DNA from: Methanosarcina sp. MSH10X1
Lineage (GTDB): Archaea > Halobacteriota > Methanosarcinia > Methanosarcinales > Methanosarcinaceae
Reading direction: 5' to 3'
NCBI RefSeq assembly: GCF_004099695.1
Contig: NZ_SCHL01000007.1
Location: 1-64,000, forward strand
DNA length: 64,000 nucleotides
Every line of letters starts with the position of its first letter. The first letter of the stretch is position 1. Positions 57,772 to 63,643 of the stretch are shown in pieces. The notes beneath the pieces are model-generated. The model was given only the letters and a program-made list of their open reading frames with translations, made no database searches and had not been told where the DNA came from. The position numbers and the translations under genes were made by a program.

Positions 57772-57812
57772 GTAGAGGATTTACTTCCGGGACACAGGTG
57801 GGGATATCTGAC

Positions 57813-58688
57813 ATGTTTGAAGGAGCAATGCCTGCCCTGATAACTCCTTTCACGAAGGATGACAGGATTGACAGGGAAGGCCTACGAAGGAATATTGAAT
57901 TTGTTGAAGAGGGAGGAGTTGCAGGAATTGTGCCCTGTGGCACTACCGGAGAATCCGCAACTCTTTCCGCATCTGAGCATCAAGAAGTAATAGATATTGC
58001 GGTAGAGTACTCAAAAGTTCCTGTGATTGCAGGAACAGGCTCAAACAATACAGGAGAAGCTCTCCTGTTTACAGAACACGCTGCAGATGCGGGTGTTGAT
58101 GGTGTGCTTCTTATTTCTCCCTATTATAACAAGCCAAATCCTGCAGGCCTGCTTGCACACTTCAAGAAAATTGCAGAATCAGTAGATATTCCCATGATTC
58201 TTTATAATGTCCCCTCTCGTACAGGGCAGGACATGCCAGTAGAGGTCATTGTTGAACTTGCAAAAGTTGAAAATATCGTGGGAATTAAGGAAGCCAGCGG
58301 AAACGTTGGCAAAGTTTCCCAGATTCTGGAAAGTACTGTAGATGAGGATTTTGTGGTTCTTTCAGGTGAGGATAGTTTGACTCTTCCGATTCTTTCTGTA
58401 GGAGGTCAAGGAGTCATTTCTGTTGCTGCAAATATAGTACCTGATAGGATGTCAAGAATGGTAAATGCAGCTCTTTCCGGAGACTACGAAACAGCGCGAA
58501 AGATCCATTTTGAGATTGCCCCTCTGATTCGTGCCCTTTTTCTGGAAACGAACCCGATCCCAGTTAAAAAAGCTGCAGAACTTGCAGGCCTTGCAAGCGG
58601 GCACCTGAGACTTCCACTCGCACCCCTTAGCGAGACAAACGCCAATAAGATCGTAGATGAACTCAGGAAACTGGAGGTTATGGAATGA
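57813..58688 (+). CDS. dapA: 4-hydroxy-tetrahydrodipicolinate synthase
   Basis: 291 residues from ATG 57813 (MFEGAMPALITPF), with GGTGGGG nine bases upstream; GTG 57798 is less likely. TIM barrel with Schiff-base lysine in VGIKEASGNVGKV and GTTGESATLS (Thr, Tyr loop; the catalytic tyrosine lies in LISPYYNKPN and LYNVPSRTG). The enzyme condenses pyruvate with aspartate semialdehyde in lysine/diaminopimelate synthesis. It overlaps dapB by four bases (ATGA). The length is normal for the family. Confidence 0.97.
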   Translation: MFEGAMPALITPFTKDDRIDREGLRRNIEFVEEGGVAGIVPCGTTGESATLSASEHQEVIDIAVEYSKVPVIAGTGSNNTGEALLFTEHAADAGVDGVLLISPYYNKPNPAGLLAHFKKIAESVDIPMILYNVPSRTGQDMPVEVIVELAKVENIVGIKEASGNVGKVSQILESTVDEDFVVLSGEDSLTLPILSVGGQGVISVAANIVPDRMSRMVNAALSGDYETARKIHFEIAPLIRALFLETNPIPVKKAAELAGLASGHLRLPLAPLSETNANKIVDELRKLEVME

Positions 58689-59476
58689 TTAATGCAGCAG
58701 TACTCGGAGCCTGTGGTAGGATGGGCTCTTTAATCATAGAAAATATTACCACCTCTCCGGATATGCAGCTTGTTGCTGCTTTTGATATCAATAATTTTGG
58801 AAAGGATGTGGGAGAATTTGCCCATACCGGGAACCTGGGAGTTCAGATCTCGGACGTTAAGGATCTTGAAGCTGTCCTGGAAAAAAGCAAGGCTGATGTT
58901 CTTATTGACTTCACGGCTGCCGGCGCAACCGTAGTTAACGCTCCAATCGCAGCCAGAACCGGAGTAAATCTAATAATAGGTACTACAGGACTAACTCCAG
59001 AGCAGCGATCAGTAATTGATGACGCTATCCAGAAAGGCCAGGTAAGTGCCGTTATCTCGCCAAATTACTCAGTAGGCGTTAACGTCTTTTTCAAGATAAT
59101 CAGAGAAGCTGCAAAATACCTTGCAGACTATGACATCGAAATTATAGAAGCTCACCATAACCAGAAAAAAGATGCCCCAAGCGGAACAGCACTTAGGGCA
59201 GCTGATGTTATAAGTGAGGCTCTGGGTGGAAAGGAGTACGTCTACGGCAGAGAAGGTATTGCCCCACGCGGAAAAGAAATCGGAATCCATGGAGTCCGTG
59301 CCGGAGATATCACAGGTGACCACACTGTCCTTTTCGCAGGCAATTCCGAGAGGATTGAGGTAAGGCACATGGCTCACTCCCGCCAGATCTTTGCCAAAGG
59401 TGCAGTGCGTGCAGCCGAATGGGTCTGCAAGCAAAACCCTGGAATTTATTCCATGGATGATGTGCTCGGTTTATAA
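58685..59476 (+). CDS. dapB: 4-hydroxy-tetrahydrodipicolinate reductase
   Basis: 263 residues. The N-terminal INAAVLGACGRMGSLIIENI holds the GxxGxxG NAD(P) site. DFTAAGATV, IGTTGLTPEQ and the catalytic EAHHNQKKDAPSGTALRAAD (H-H and K-D-A-P-S-G-T) are present. It reduces the dapA product to tetrahydrodipicolinate. Its start overlaps the dapA stop (ATGA), so translation is coupled. The window contains no further lysine genes downstream. Confidence 0.97.
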   Translation: MINAAVLGACGRMGSLIIENITTSPDMQLVAAFDINNFGKDVGEFAHTGNLGVQISDVKDLEAVLEKSKADVLIDFTAAGATVVNAPIAARTGVNLIIGTTGLTPEQRSVIDDAIQKGQVSAVISPNYSVGVNVFFKIIREAAKYLADYDIEIIEAHHNQKKDAPSGTALRAADVISEALGGKEYVYGREGIAPRGKEIGIHGVRAGDITGDHTVLFAGNSERIEVRHMAHSRQIFAKGAVRAAEWVCKQNPGIYSMDDVLGL

Positions 59477-59674: not shown

Positions 59675-60094
59675 TCACTCACGGCTGAAGATTAGTCCTG
59701 AACTCAAGTTTTCAATCCTGTCCCCAATAACGACATTTCCCTGTATTCCCAGCTTTTTTCCCCTGTACCAATTTCCATGAATACGGAGCCTATCCCCTGC
59801 TGAGATGAGGCAGAGACCGTGATAAAGCACAACTACGATTTTTCCTTCGTATTCAATCGAGAAGATACTTTCATATTTGCTTCCGATGCCTCCAAAGACG
59901 ATAATAAAAGGTATACCAAGAAAAAAGGATGGACGTTCATAGATTCTGGAATCAACACATGCTTTGACTTCATCTCCAAACTCCTCAGTATCTTTTTTCA
60001 TTTTTCCCTCTTCATTTTTGGTTTTTGAATCCTCAGAAAGATATATAACATCAATAACGTCAGGATTAGTTTCAAAATCACCTTCTTTTCGCAT
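59675..60094 (-). CDS. Uncharacterised protein with OB-fold-like C-terminus
   Basis: About 139 residues. ATG 60094 (MRKEGDFETNPDVIDVIYLS) is preferred: GTGAGG lies six bases upstream, whereas GTG 60106 would start within it. The N-terminal ~60 residues are charged. The C-terminal half (LCLISAGDRLRIHGNWYRGK) has the strand pattern and G-rich turns of an OB-fold, suggesting nucleic acid or ligand binding (inference). The gene stands alone on the minus strand between dapB and the Tfx gene. No family is recognised. Confidence 0.6.
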   Translation of the reverse strand: MRKEGDFETNPDVIDVIYLSEDSKTKNEEGKMKKDTEEFGDEVKACVDSRIYERPSFFLGIPFIIVFGGIGSKYESIFSIEYEGKIVVVLYHGLCLISAGDRLRIHGNWYRGKKLGIQGNVVIGDRIENLSSGLIFSRE

Positions 60095-60339
60095 AAAAAG
60101 CCTCACTGGTCCTGCAGTTTAAGTTTATGTTTCTTAAATTAATTTAAGACTTAACTCTTAAAAAATATTAATTTATTGGGCAATTTTTAATGCTTCTATA
60201 TATTTTTTACGGACAGGTCATTAAATTATTCCTGGGAAACATTTATAATTTTTTAAAAAGAAGATCTTTTTAAAACAAATAGTTCTAAAAAACTTTCGGA
60301 GCAGAAACCTATAAATAGTCAACATTTAGATGTTTACTT

Positions 60340-60789
60340 ATGTTCCTTCCGGCAGGCGAAAAACAGTTTGAATTCTGGGTTCTGCGCCGAAATGGGCTTC
60401 CGAATATCAATATTGCAAAGCGTTTCGGAGTCTCCAGGCAGGCAGTCTCGCGAGCCCTTCTTAGTATGGACAAGCGCATTGAAGAAGTCCTGTTTGAAAT
60501 GGCCAGAGCAAACAGGATCGAAGTCGAAAAATTGGACCCAAAGAAAGGGATACTCTTCGGAAAATCGATACCCTTCAAAGCCAACGCAATAATTTTTGTC
60601 TCGGTAAAACATGGAATGCAGGTCTGGTATGAACACGAAGGAGAATGCAGGTCTTGCGAGAGGTACAGAGAATGTATCGAACTTCTCTGGGACTTTGCAG
60701 ATGAAATGCAGCTCAAACTCCATAGCACGAATGATCCCACAAAAGTAGCTGATGAGCTCTTTAAGAAATTAAAAGAATCGATCGAATAG
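60340..60789 (+). CDS. Tfx-family DNA-binding protein
   Basis: 149 residues. The N-terminal helix-turn-helix is of sigma-region-4 type (GLPNINIAKRFGVSRQAVSR). The C-terminal Tfx domain contains HEGECRSCERYRECIELLWD with Cys pairs that may bind a metal. Tfx was described as a DNA-binding activator candidate at the molybdenum formylmethanofuran dehydrogenase operon of Methanothermobacter. It sits 21 bp upstream of a tandem DUF1673 array in the same orientation, so control of that array is possible. The start ATG 60340 lacks a clear ribosome binding site and may be leaderless. Confidence 0.9.
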   Translation: MFLPAGEKQFEFWVLRRNGLPNINIAKRFGVSRQAVSRALLSMDKRIEEVLFEMARANRIEVEKLDPKKGILFGKSIPFKANAIIFVSVKHGMQVWYEHEGECRSCERYRECIELLWDFADEMQLKLHSTNDPTKVADELFKKLKESIE

Positions 60790-60810
60790 GCCTGACTAAA
60801 GGCAGGTACA

Positions 60811-61530
60811 ATGGGGGAAATGGTAGCAGTGAACATAGTCATAAAGAGTATAAGGAAACTGATGGGATGGTGCCCGAATGTAAAAGCGCTTGAAACCCAA
60901 CATTCCATCTGCTCTGAATATTTGGAAGCGAATAGTCAATCAAGGGGGAAAGATGCCGAAAATTCACCGATTTCATCTCCCAGCTGGTGGAACAAACGAC
61001 ATAATAGGGTATTAATAATGTCCTCCGGGCTTACCCTCTTTTCCATATATTTGATTATATTTCAGGGAGTCCGTCCCATGGATAAAGGTTTCATGTTTGG
61101 GTTAATTATCGGAACTATTTTTAATCTGCTCTTTTGTATCTGGAGCTGGCATTATCTGGATAACATAAAGAACTCAAGCAGAAAAATAAAAATAATAACT
61201 GTATCATCAAAATGGAGAGTTATAAATCAAATACTATCCTTGGCATTACTGTATCTCTTATTTTCACAATTTAATTGGGGATTCATTTTGTTTTTAATCT
61301 CTGCTTTTTCTTTGATAGTTTTGTTGTACTACTTTAAGTTTGATTTATCGCCTCTAATGTTACTTCTTTACTTCGGTTCGCGCAACATGGCACTTATATC
61401 TGGACTTTGTTTGACAGCTTATCTGTATTATTTTACAGATATATACTGGGAAAAGAAGAATAAAAAAACCGTGCTTATTTACGGGCGTAACATGCCAGAG
61501 ATCCACATTGTAAATATGGGGATGGAGTAA
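60811..61530 (+). CDS. DUF1673 membrane protein (array copy 1)
   Basis: 239 residues. The N-terminal signature IRKLMGWCPNVKALETQ is the DUF1673 hallmark, with W-C-P in a short basic amphipathic segment. After a polar stretch of ~40 residues, four to five hydrophobic segments follow (SSGLTLFSIYLIIFQG, FMFGLIIGTIFNLLFCIW, FILFLISAFSLIVLLYY). The last ~25 residues (DIYWEKKNKKTVLIYGRNMP) are shared with the next copies. Function is unknown; the family is best known from Methanosarcina. Alternative starts at ATG 60820 or nearby cannot be excluded. Confidence 0.85.
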   Translation: MGEMVAVNIVIKSIRKLMGWCPNVKALETQHSICSEYLEANSQSRGKDAENSPISSPSWWNKRHNRVLIMSSGLTLFSIYLIIFQGVRPMDKGFMFGLIIGTIFNLLFCIWSWHYLDNIKNSSRKIKIITVSSKWRVINQILSLALLYLLFSQFNWGFILFLISAFSLIVLLYYFKFDLSPLMLLLYFGSRNMALISGLCLTAYLYYFTDIYWEKKNKKTVLIYGRNMPEIHIVNMGME

Positions 61531-61535
61531 CGACT

Positions 61536-62135
61536 ATGATCATGAAATACATCAAAAAGCTAATGGGATGGTGCCCGAACACCAAAACATATGAAGCTGA
61601 AGCCAGAAGACATTTTAGCCTTGGAAATTTTGATTCCGATATTCCAGACAGAGCAAGGGGAGAAAACGGAGATTTAAAGAACTCTGGATGGCTCCAGAGA
61701 GAAAGCAATCAAATTCTTCTATTTGCTATTTTTTTAACATTTGTTCATCTCCTTATATACAATCACATGGGCCTTCTCCCATCCCTTTTCTCATCATTAC
61801 CTCCCCTATTTTATTTTGTATTTTACTGGAATAAGCGGATTCAACGGTTCAACGACATTGCAAGAAAACCTATTGTCCGTTATGTCTCTAAAGTATCATA
61901 TCTTTGGGTTTTGATAATCATGATTTTTATTGCTCTGCTTCTGTTGCTCAGTTATATGATAAGGCAATCCTGGCACTCAGTCTTATTCGGACTTTCAATT
62001 CTTTTGTTCTTTACATGGGGTTTCTATATTCAGTTAATTTACTGGGAAAGGAGAAATCACATGAAAATTTATGTAAAACATGAAAATAGCCTCGAGAAGA
62101 TGTATGCTGTTGGGGAAAAAGAGGGAGAACTATGA
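61536..62135 (+). CDS. DUF1673 membrane protein (array copy 2)
   Basis: 199 residues from ATG 61536 (MIMKYIKKLMGWCPNTKTYE), 5 bp after copy 1. The signature is followed by a charged linker (IPDRARGENGDLKNSGW) and four membrane segments (ILLFAIFLTFVHLLIYN, LFSSLPPLFYFVFYW, LWVLIIMIFIALLLLLSYM, SVLFGLSILLFFTW). The tail IQLIYWERRNHMKIYVKHEN is shared with copies 1 and 3. Its 3' end overlaps copy 3 by ATGA. Membrane protein of unknown function. Confidence 0.87.
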   Translation: MIMKYIKKLMGWCPNTKTYEAEARRHFSLGNFDSDIPDRARGENGDLKNSGWLQRESNQILLFAIFLTFVHLLIYNHMGLLPSLFSSLPPLFYFVFYWNKRIQRFNDIARKPIVRYVSKVSYLWVLIIMIFIALLLLLSYMIRQSWHSVLFGLSILLFFTWGFYIQLIYWERRNHMKIYVKHENSLEKMYAVGEKEGEL

Positions 62136-62725
62136 GCCTTAAAGTCGAAACCATAAAAAGACTGATGAGCTGGTGCCCAAATGCAAAAGCACATGAGGCA
62201 AGACAACCTATTAACTTTGAAAGTTTTGAATCTGGTATTTCGAGTAGATCAAGTGGAGATGACGAAAAACAGAAAAATCCTGGATGGTTTCGGAAAACAA
62301 GTATCCGAACTTTTTTAATTACCACATTTTTTACACTCACATATCTCCCAATAATTAAGCAATTAGGTGTAAACCTGATTTTTCTACTTGCCGGATCTTT
62401 AGTTTCTTTGTTTTTCATTATATTTGACTGGAATGCTCAAATGCAAAGATATGATATTCTGATAAAACAACCAGTAATCGATTATTCAGGTAAGAAAAAC
62501 CTGTATTATATACTCGCATATACGTTCATGATTGTGATTTTCTACTTTAAAGGTCAAGAACTCGCTATGCAAGCAATATTTTCACTATTGGGAGGTTCTC
62601 TGGTTGCTATGTGGCTTAGTTATTTCCAGCTAATATATTGGGAGAAAAAGAACCACAAAACTATTTATTATGGCAAAAAGCATGGGACCTGGAAATCTTC
62701 GTATCTCATTATGGAGAAAAAATAA
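62132..62725 (+). CDS. DUF1673 membrane protein (array copy 3)
   Basis: 197 residues from ATG 62132 (MSLKVETIKRLMSWCPNAKA), overlapping copy 2 by four bases, with GGGAG upstream. It has the same order as copy 2: signature, polar linker (SSRSSGDDEKQKNPGWF), four hydrophobic segments, then FQLIYWEKKNHKTIYYGKKH. A Gly in the signature is replaced by Ser (SWCP). The polarity and spacing of the linker are conserved although residues vary, as expected after tandem duplication. Confidence 0.87.
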   Translation: MSLKVETIKRLMSWCPNAKAHEARQPINFESFESGISSRSSGDDEKQKNPGWFRKTSIRTFLITTFFTLTYLPIIKQLGVNLIFLLAGSLVSLFFIIFDWNAQMQRYDILIKQPVIDYSGKKNLYYILAYTFMIVIFYFKGQELAMQAIFSLLGGSLVAMWLSYFQLIYWEKKNHKTIYYGKKHGTWKSSYLIMEKK

Positions 62726-62833
62726 ATGCCTACTAAAGCTGCTACTTTTGAACAAATCAAAAGTTCATGTGTTGGTGCCCAGCCTGTAAGAAAATGGTAC
62801 GATATAAGTTGGACTCTTACTACTCATAATTAG
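62726..62833 (+). pseudogene. Frameshifted DUF1673 remnant in the array
   Basis: ATG 62726 begins at the stop of copy 3 and reads FEQIK, like other DUF1673 N-termini. The signature KKFMCWCPACKK then appears only in another frame. One extra A in the AAAA run at ~62758-62762 would join the two (ATC-AAA-AAG-TTC). The rest of a DUF1673 protein is absent; both frames stop within ~110 bp. It is a truncated, frameshifted fifth copy. Confidence 0.75.
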
Positions 62834-62893
62834 ACGAAATCTCGGCTGCCGAGATAAAATCACTCATTGTAAGGCATTGTGAGGGTGCATGAA

Positions 62894-63643
62894 ATGGTTT
62901 TTGAGGAACACTTCAAAAAGCTGTTGGGCTGGTGCCCAATGAAAGGTTATCTTAAGAAAGATGGGCAGGAAGGCTGCTTCCCTGAATTTAAATTAGAAAA
63001 TAGGAATATTCAGTTAGTACCATCATCCCTGGGTCTGCACGAAAGTGGAATTCTTAAGGTGAGGGCTAGTCTCTTTGACGGGAGATGGATATTATGGATA
63101 TTAATAATCACTTTTTTCACAATAATAGTCTCATTATTTTTCTGGACATATAGTCCTGAAGGCTCTTATTTAGTCATTTTTTCAGGCCTTATTATGTTCC
63201 TTATGCCTCTCATGATATTTCTTAACCATCCAAATACTGCTTCAGTAATGCCCGGAAAAATCATGATTAAGAAACCTATGCGTAAGTTAGTTGTGATCAA
63301 AAAAGAGGAGATTAAACAAATCTCAGTAAAAAGGATAGGGAATCGTTTCGGTTGCTGGCTGATACGCCTAGTTTGCGTAATCTGGATACCATTTTACTTT
63401 AAAAAAGAGATAATGACAACTTTGTACGATCTGAAAATGTCATTTCCAGACTACATCGAACTCAGTCAATTTCTGAGACAGCTTGCATTACTAACAATGT
63501 TCTTTATAATGTTTTACAACAACGAACTCATGGCGCCTTATCAGCAGGCTCTTGAAGTAACCACAAACTCAAACCTGAGAATCTGGTTGTATACCGAAGA
63601 ACCTGAAAAACTTACCACGATCCTCAGAAACGAGAGTGAATAA
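62894..63643 (+). CDS. DUF1673 membrane protein (array copy 4, divergent)
   Basis: About 249 residues. ATG 62894 (MVFEEHFKKLLGWCP) has GAGGGTG six bases upstream; GTG 62879 is a weaker alternative. The LLGWCPMKGY signature is kept. The polar linker is longer (~60 residues). Four or five membrane segments follow (GRWILWILIITFFTIIVSLF, YLVIFSGLIMFLMPLMIF, LIRLVCVIWIPFYF, LALLTMFFIMFYNN). The C-terminus ends in RIWLYTEEPEKLTTI, unlike the YWE..N tail of copies 1-3. It is a more divergent or chimeric family member, last intact gene of the array. Confidence 0.82.
   Translation: MVFEEHFKKLLGWCPMKGYLKKDGQEGCFPEFKLENRNIQLVPSSLGLHESGILKVRASLFDGRWILWILIITFFTIIVSLFFWTYSPEGSYLVIFSGLIMFLMPLMIFLNHPNTASVMPGKIMIKKPMRKLVVIKKEEIKQISVKRIGNRFGCWLIRLVCVIWIPFYFKKEIMTTLYDLKMSFPDYIELSQFLRQLALLTMFFIMFYNNELMAPYQQALEVTTNSNLRIWLYTEEPEKLTTILRNESE

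Follow-up and report, generated by a model that had tools for sequence, protein, structure and literature searches.

A 64,000-nucleotide stretch of DNA from Methanosarcina sp. MSH10X1 (contig NZ_SCHL01000007.1, positions 1 to 64,000; hereafter the window) contains a gene for a helix-turn-helix (HTH) regulator followed by an array of four genes for membrane proteins of the DUF1673 family, each with a WCP signature in a short N-terminal tag. We found that the regulator and the tagged genes belong to a system of methanogenic and methane-oxidising archaea, in which the conserved part downstream of the regulator is the N-terminal tag and not the membrane domain. A preliminary description of the locus had spoken of an autoregulated membrane system not yet described, and this is well supported, as is the novelty of the system: an operator precedes every regulator examined, the linkage is near-complete, and the literature found gives no function. 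The best model, to which we assign a probability of about 55%, is an autorepressor captured by tagged membrane sensors, with the stimulus as its least certain step.

Among 61 genomes of the family, 23 possessed DUF1673 genes, and these were exactly the 23 with the regulator (Fisher p = 3e-17, relatedness ignored); wherever both lay on one contig, they were adjacent and in the same order. In a survey of 345 genomes of the phylum, the regulator was present in 37 of the 38 DUF1673-positive genomes, the exception being a partial, tag-less match. Fifteen further genomes of the phylum had the regulator without a Pfam match, and most of the genes next to it encoded other membrane domains behind the same N-terminal tag. 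Scanning 84,980 species gave 162 loci, 80 of which were kept for analysis; these come from Methanosarcina, Methanolobus, Methanococcoides, Methanoperedens, Methanoculleus, Methanoregula, Methanospirillum, Methanolinea, genomes labelled ANME-2/ANME-3, and one metagenome-assembled genome of the Archaeoglobales. A tagged gene stood directly downstream of 71 of the 83 regulators in the kept loci, and two regulators lay at contig ends; three of the remaining 10 were tag variants or start-site problems (L247, L240, and L253), with GWCL in L240 and GWFP in L253 as rare exceptions to the tag. Outside Methanosarcina, the junction between the regulator and the tagged gene was mostly a 4-bp or 1-bp overlap. 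The neighbourhood is not due to chance, and the linkage is near-complete across several orders, which upholds the association of regulator and DUF1673 genes seen by the preliminary description. In another class of the phylum, the gene after a weaker regulator homologue encodes a bPH_5 membrane protein that has no tag (L067:867-1839), possibly an ancestral form of the system, and in an ANME-2 genome an ATP-binding cassette (ABC) ATPase of the lipoprotein/peptide-exporter type directly follows the regulator, with no tagged gene there (L233:1654-2253 and downstream).

The upstream regions of all 125 non-identical regulators could be aligned and consisted of AA-nn followed by a TATA-like octamer, a palindrome GTCAAC-N8-GTTGAC (or GTMAAC/GTTKAC variants), 2 bp, and the start codon. 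Relative to the start codon, the octamer occupies about -30 to -23, with the same offset throughout, and the palindrome -22 to -3, shifted by 1-2 bp in four cases. The regulator is predicted to bind GTCAACAT-N4-ATGTTTAC. The 3.56-Mb genome of the window contains one perfect operator match, at the array promoter; the pattern was found in 25 of 31 Methanosarcina genomes, and a reversed control pattern in none of the 31. Those other sites with two mismatches that were inspected as candidates for a further regulon in the same genome fell in or beside housekeeping genes without TATA context and were rejected. As in systems of the SdpRI type, the operator lies in the promoter of the operon for the repressor and the membrane proteins, and the array is very probably autoregulated through the palindrome. 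A repressor would be expected to bind in the space that separates a TATA box from a presumed leaderless start, and the position of the operator indicates that the regulator is likely to be a repressor rather than an activator.

The preliminary description had labelled the regulator as Tfx, and this label is not supported as a family assignment. The regulator scored 16.1 bits against TIGR00721 (Tfx), over residues 7-38 only, where the curated cut-off is 60.25; no Tfx match at E 0.001 was found in the window genome; and two genomes (G104 and G110) hold both a true Tfx and the array regulator. Using hhalign with a profile of 17 true Tfx proteins, only residues 5-59, the HTH, were aligned (probability 92.7, E = 4e-7, 55 columns), and no profile alignment with the C-terminal half of Tfx was obtained past residue 59. 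On these results we reject Tfx membership as unsupported; a distant common fold is possible. The HTH distantly resembles sigma-70 region 4. The AlphaFold model of the regulator (mean pLDDT of 82; the other four models, 46-62) consists of the HTH, a long helix, a sheet, and helices, and its top Foldseek match was EnfR, with weak similarity (E = 0.04, TM 0.30-0.35). Tfx/EnfR proteins (TIGR00721; MTH0916, TON_1525) share with the regulator the sigma-4-like HTH and the predicted order of HTH, long helix, beta sheet, and helices, whereas the C-terminal half of the regulator cannot be aligned with theirs and carries an HxxxCxxCxxxxxC cluster, and the targets differ. In this cluster (H99-x3-C103-x2-C106-x5-C112), C103, C106, and C112 were invariant in 30 diverse homologues and H99 nearly so; a metal or an Fe-S centre could plausibly be bound there. 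The nearest relative to have been characterised, EnfR, binds a pseudo-palindrome as a dimer and has been described as a putative repressor, for which an anti-repressor has been suggested. The array regulator is presumably dimeric as well. If it were instead an activator recruiting RNA polymerase, and the tagged proteins acted as anti-activators, its distantly sigma-4-like HTH would fit, but a protein bound at the operator, downstream of the TATA box and ahead of the start codon, would block the polymerase, and the description of EnfR points the other way; we regard this explanation as very unlikely.

We collected 319 distinct downstream proteins for the analysis of the tag. Once the tag was removed, they fell into 15 clusters (including singletons) without BLAST similarity to each other. 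The Pfam domains behind the tag were DUF1673, DUF1648 with SdpI (L077 and L066), DUF6159/GPDPase_memb (L070 and L088), polysaccharide flippase (L097), and Yip1 (L235), and a weak match to the AglB core was found in L069 and L230. DUF1673, by which the preliminary description had defined the array, is thus the correct Pfam family for all four window proteins but too narrow as a definition of the system, and a pure DUF1673 story is rejected by these mutually unrelated clusters. The tag, approximately 12 residues plus GWCP, was alike across the clusters, with a consensus of about -7E..I-[RK]-K-L-M-G-W-C-P-N and MIMKYIKKLMGWCPNTK as an example peptide. Among 35 divergent members of the PH type (down to 14% identity), W-C-P were the sole invariant residues; the invariance of the tag cysteine is partly built into the search pattern, and its 100% figure was not used. 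A transmembrane (TM) segment was present in 319 of 319 tagged proteins, after a linker with a median length of 39 residues. The model of window protein 4 has an N-terminal helix (residues 2-10), disorder (residues 16-51), TM helices interleaved with seven strands, and a C-terminal helix, and several PH domains were matched by Foldseek, none with E below 0.1. Joined by a flexible linker to differing membrane and PH-like parts, the common tag is cytosolic and consists of an amphipathic helix and GWCP. A short common motif on a flexible tether before unrelated membrane domains is built like a docking site. Two tandem tags are present in one array protein (L243:7160-8158), which seems to have arisen by fusion of two adjacent tagged genes. 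In four others (L061:6665-7585, L062:5360-6136, L069:5852-7012, and L230:6767-8035), the tag is joined to a WWDY/WWDF-containing soluble domain that resembles the C-terminal core of the archaeal oligosaccharyltransferase AglB, without its catalytic TM part.

A second class of regulator, with the recognition helix TRQG (10 distinct sequences), was followed by GLC[RP]-tagged arrays in 10 of 10 cases; its operator, GTAAATGT-N4-ACATTTAC, was found in nine, and the tenth was intermediate. Main-class regulators (SRQA) stand before GWC arrays and in no case before GLC arrays. The two classes are insulated from each other and occur together in single genomes (G221, G291, G314, G216, and G338, and also L267 and L281). 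Among the residues by which the classes differ are three in the recognition helix (32, 35, and 38) and three next to the Cys cluster (108, 115, and 116). A basic residue at tag positions +3 to +5 was present in 23 of 24 tags with E108 regulators versus 38 of 318 with R108. E108 is found in the GLC class and in a second clade, L061/L062 (tags GWCPKK and GWCPRK), and two changes were needed in all bootstrap trees. The tracking of tag charge by residue 108 suggests, without proving, that the tag docks on the regulator, and the Cys-cluster face of the regulator may be where the two meet. On these sequence correlations, we somewhat favour docking. At the GLC loci, genes for secreted immunoglobulin (Ig)-like or S-layer-like proteins (Table 1) are preceded by a class-B operator that ends exactly 2 bp short of the start codon, and the long open reading frame (ORF) calls beginning with MSIHLHM at these genes are translated operator.

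The Cys cluster could also serve another purpose. A regulator that autorepresses but itself senses a metal or redox signal through H99/C103/C106/C112, with the tag used for membrane-site targeting or co-assembly of the array, would account for an invariant cluster of metal- or Fe-S-site type, and tandem paralogues with a common terminal segment could form hetero-oligomers. However, a tag unrelated to regulation would not be expected to shift in type along with both the regulator class and residue 108, which adjoins the cluster. Nor would tagged DUF1673 proteins be expected to stay beside the regulator or its relics, as they do in the survey genomes, with none found elsewhere in the window genome; the tag is, moreover, common to domains without a reason to co-assemble. 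We therefore consider this explanation unlikely.

Extra perfect operators were found in Methanosarcina before an operon of Yip1, a secreted protein, an ABC ATPase, and a MacB/FtsX permease (L137, L175, and L183) and before Yip1 only (L172). The Methanoregula-like genomes L135 and L136 likewise have an extra operator before a Yip1-ABC-MacB operon. Methanosarcina Yip1 homologues with 45-56% identity had no coinciding operator; only the four with at least 78% identity did. Several other extra Methanosarcina operators were rejected as new targets because they precede degenerate regulator copies instead (L169, L176, and L181). In a 4.6-Mb Methanosarcina genome, a second regulator copy heads a GWCP-tagged polysaccharide flippase, which adjoins an ABC exporter with its own operator (L097:6396-8946 and L138:4003-5835).

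In the model of capture by tagged sensors, a regulator dimer with a sigma-4-like HTH would bind the palindrome that lies past the TATA box and ahead of the start codon, and so repress its own operon, from which membrane proteins with differing membrane or PH-like parts and a common cytosolic tag would be produced. When a membrane sensor meets a toxin, a peptide, or membrane damage, its tag would capture the regulator via the Cys-cluster face and hold it off the DNA. Release of the operator would then yield more sensor/immunity proteins and, in some genomes, also the Yip1-MacB-type ABC exporter operon. The circuit would work like SdpR/SdpI or a membrane anti-sigma factor, yet the tag would let many sensors report to one regulator.

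SdpR of Bacillus subtilis is an ArsR-like repressor, and the YdbST proteins contain PH domains. SdpI senses the toxin and sequesters the autorepressor SdpR at the membrane (PMC1626106). In the sigma-W regulon, YknWXYZ (Yip1 and a MacB-like ABC transporter), YfhL (an SdpI paralogue), and YdbST protect against antimicrobial peptides (PMC8144471, PMC4887032). The archaeal system resembles SdpR/SdpI in the predicted co-transcription of an autorepressor with a polytopic membrane immunity/sensor protein and in the SdpI and DUF1648 domains of some array members (L077 and L066; Pfam found no SdpI domain in the four window proteins). By contrast, SdpR belongs to another repressor family and has one membrane partner, without a common N-terminal tag or an array of unrelated domains. 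The system also has an inventory similar to that of sigma-W/RsiW of B. subtilis (Yip1 with a MacB-type ABC transporter, an SdpI paralogue, and YdbST) and, in the proposed model, a sigma-4-like HTH under membrane control. It differs in that the archaeal regulator is a predicted palindrome-binding protein and not a sigma factor, and in its many tagged partners versus one anti-sigma factor; no RsiW or proteolysis was seen in the archaeal system. This sigma-W-like inventory and the SdpI-type parts lead to the envelope-stress reading, and by analogy we give a function in envelope stress or against antimicrobial peptides an even chance.

A related explanation is a polymorphic immunity or conflict locus, in which a tandem-duplicating array acts against membrane toxins of rival archaea or bacteria and the regulator is a plain local repressor. 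SdpI-type domains are those of immunity proteins, the arrays of relatives differ in copy number (1 to about 10) and contain fragments, and the family has been reported, in the passages found, as a "dark matter" island family; the idea is also compatible with the effector half of the capture model. It leaves the invariant cytosolic tag on unrelated domains and the class-specific matching of regulator and tag unexplained, however, and no PADLOC family match was obtained at E 0.01 for eight proteins, which also led us to reject a known anti-phage defence. We judge such a locus improbable. A mobile or viral origin was likewise rejected, because a pattern scan of viral contigs (IMG/VR) did not find the system and there were no PHROG matches.

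Several observations weigh against the capture model. The charge correlation at residue 108 rests on two clades, and the strong branches are compatible with a single E108 change. About seven of the 83 regulators adjoin untagged genes. The trans operators occur in a minority of genomes and the trans Yip1 operon is absent from the window genome, and the operator and the Yip1 start are 390-800 bp apart in Methanosarcina. For the stimulus, the argument comes from domain content, and DUF1673 itself has no known activity; binding, repression, and docking are deduced from sequence.

The features of the window locus are given in Table 1. The gene order in the preliminary description, with a 21-bp gap after the regulator, four same-strand DUF1673 genes with a remnant, and 5-bp and ATGA junctions, agrees with the coordinates and Pfam scores; the ATGA junction is a 4-bp overlap between genes 2 and 3, and the 153 bp after gene 3 contain the remnant. 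All four proteins (82-200 bits) pass the PF07895 (DUF1673) gathering cut-off of 30.4 bits. The WCP signature and subsequent membrane helices also proved correct, with the tags GWCP, GWCP, SWCP, and GWCP (genes 1-4) at residues 11-19 and predicted TM segments after them. The start of the remnant resembles intact MPAKAAAFEQIKKLMGWCPACKK genes of relatives, and its frameshift falls within the tag. These four are the only DUF1673 genes of the window genome (G000), which has no regulator paralogue. Upstream of the regulator lies a divergent small gene (59675-60106, minus strand), for which all Pfam and NCBIfam matches were below cut-off, and other Methanosarcina (e.g. L142 1139-1555) encode a similar protein at the equivalent position. 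The dapA-dapB genes (57798-59476) are beside the locus, likewise in other Methanosarcina, and this retained neighbourhood points to vertical inheritance at a fixed site.

Table 1. Features of the regulator-array locus in the window and of secreted-protein genes at GLC loci.
Feature	Position	Strand	Details
TATA box (tataaata) of the regulator-array promoter	60310-60317	+	read from sequence
Palindromic operator GTCAACATttagATGTTTAC	60318-60337	.	TATA box upstream; ATG (60340) 2 bp downstream
Regulator gene	60340-60789	+	149 aa; ORF calling; N-terminal HTH (residues 7-40), long helix, beta sheet, H99/C103/C106/C112 cluster, C-terminal helices
Tagged membrane protein 1 (DUF1673)	60811-61530	+	PF07895 199.6 bits; GWCP at 60865-60876; predicted TM from residue 65
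Tagged membrane protein 2 (DUF1673)	61536-62135	+	PF07895 135 bits; GWCP at 61566-61577; predicted TM from residue 56
Tagged membrane protein 3 (DUF1673)	62132-62725	+	PF07895 191.3 bits; SWCP at 62168-62179
Frameshifted remnant of tagged gene	62726-62878	+	MPTKAATFEQIK..., then WCPACKKM in next frame
Tagged membrane protein 4	62894-63643 (alternative GTG start 62879)	+	PF07895 82.3 bits; GWCP at 62927-62938; PH-like domain interleaved with TM helices
Ig-like/S-layer-like gene	L077:7395-8372
Ig-like/S-layer-like gene	L070:18152-19003
Ig-like/S-layer-like gene	L076:5308-6219
Ig-like/S-layer-like gene	L078:9424-10512
Ig-like/S-layer-like gene	L079:8072-9829

The array members are of the family that was noted in 2014-2015 as arCOG06827/SC.00027, DUF1673 membrane proteins with an "MGWCP motif" whose numbers are expanded in Methanosarcina (PMC4158269, PMC4390880). 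The passages found treat them as an uncharacterised expansion, and the only paper found to mention the motif gives it no function; the passages name no regulator, operator, or sharing of the tag across unrelated domains. Nothing relevant was found in the literature on responses of Methanosarcina to antimicrobial peptides, and archaeal sensing of envelope damage and membrane toxins is poorly known in general. The system may, with slightly less than even odds, represent a new class of archaeal signal transduction and a functional counterpart of the Bacillus sigma-W response to antimicrobial peptides, in which a docking tag at the N-terminus, universal in the form GWCP or GLC[R], would link interchangeable, unrelated membrane sensor/immunity domains to one dedicated palindrome-binding autorepressor, with insulated tag-regulator-operator classes that evolved separately and occur within one genome. 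DUF1673, an abundant unexplained "dark matter" family since 2014, can now be tested as a circuit for which the operator and the putative docking motif are defined, and for which specificity residues (108 and 115) and an output (the Yip1-MacB exporter) are predicted. The GWCP and GLCR classes in one genome are natural orthogonal pairs that allow swap experiments, and, if the model is true, such a short tag, by which diverse membrane domains connect to a single regulator, would also be of use in the construction of sensors.

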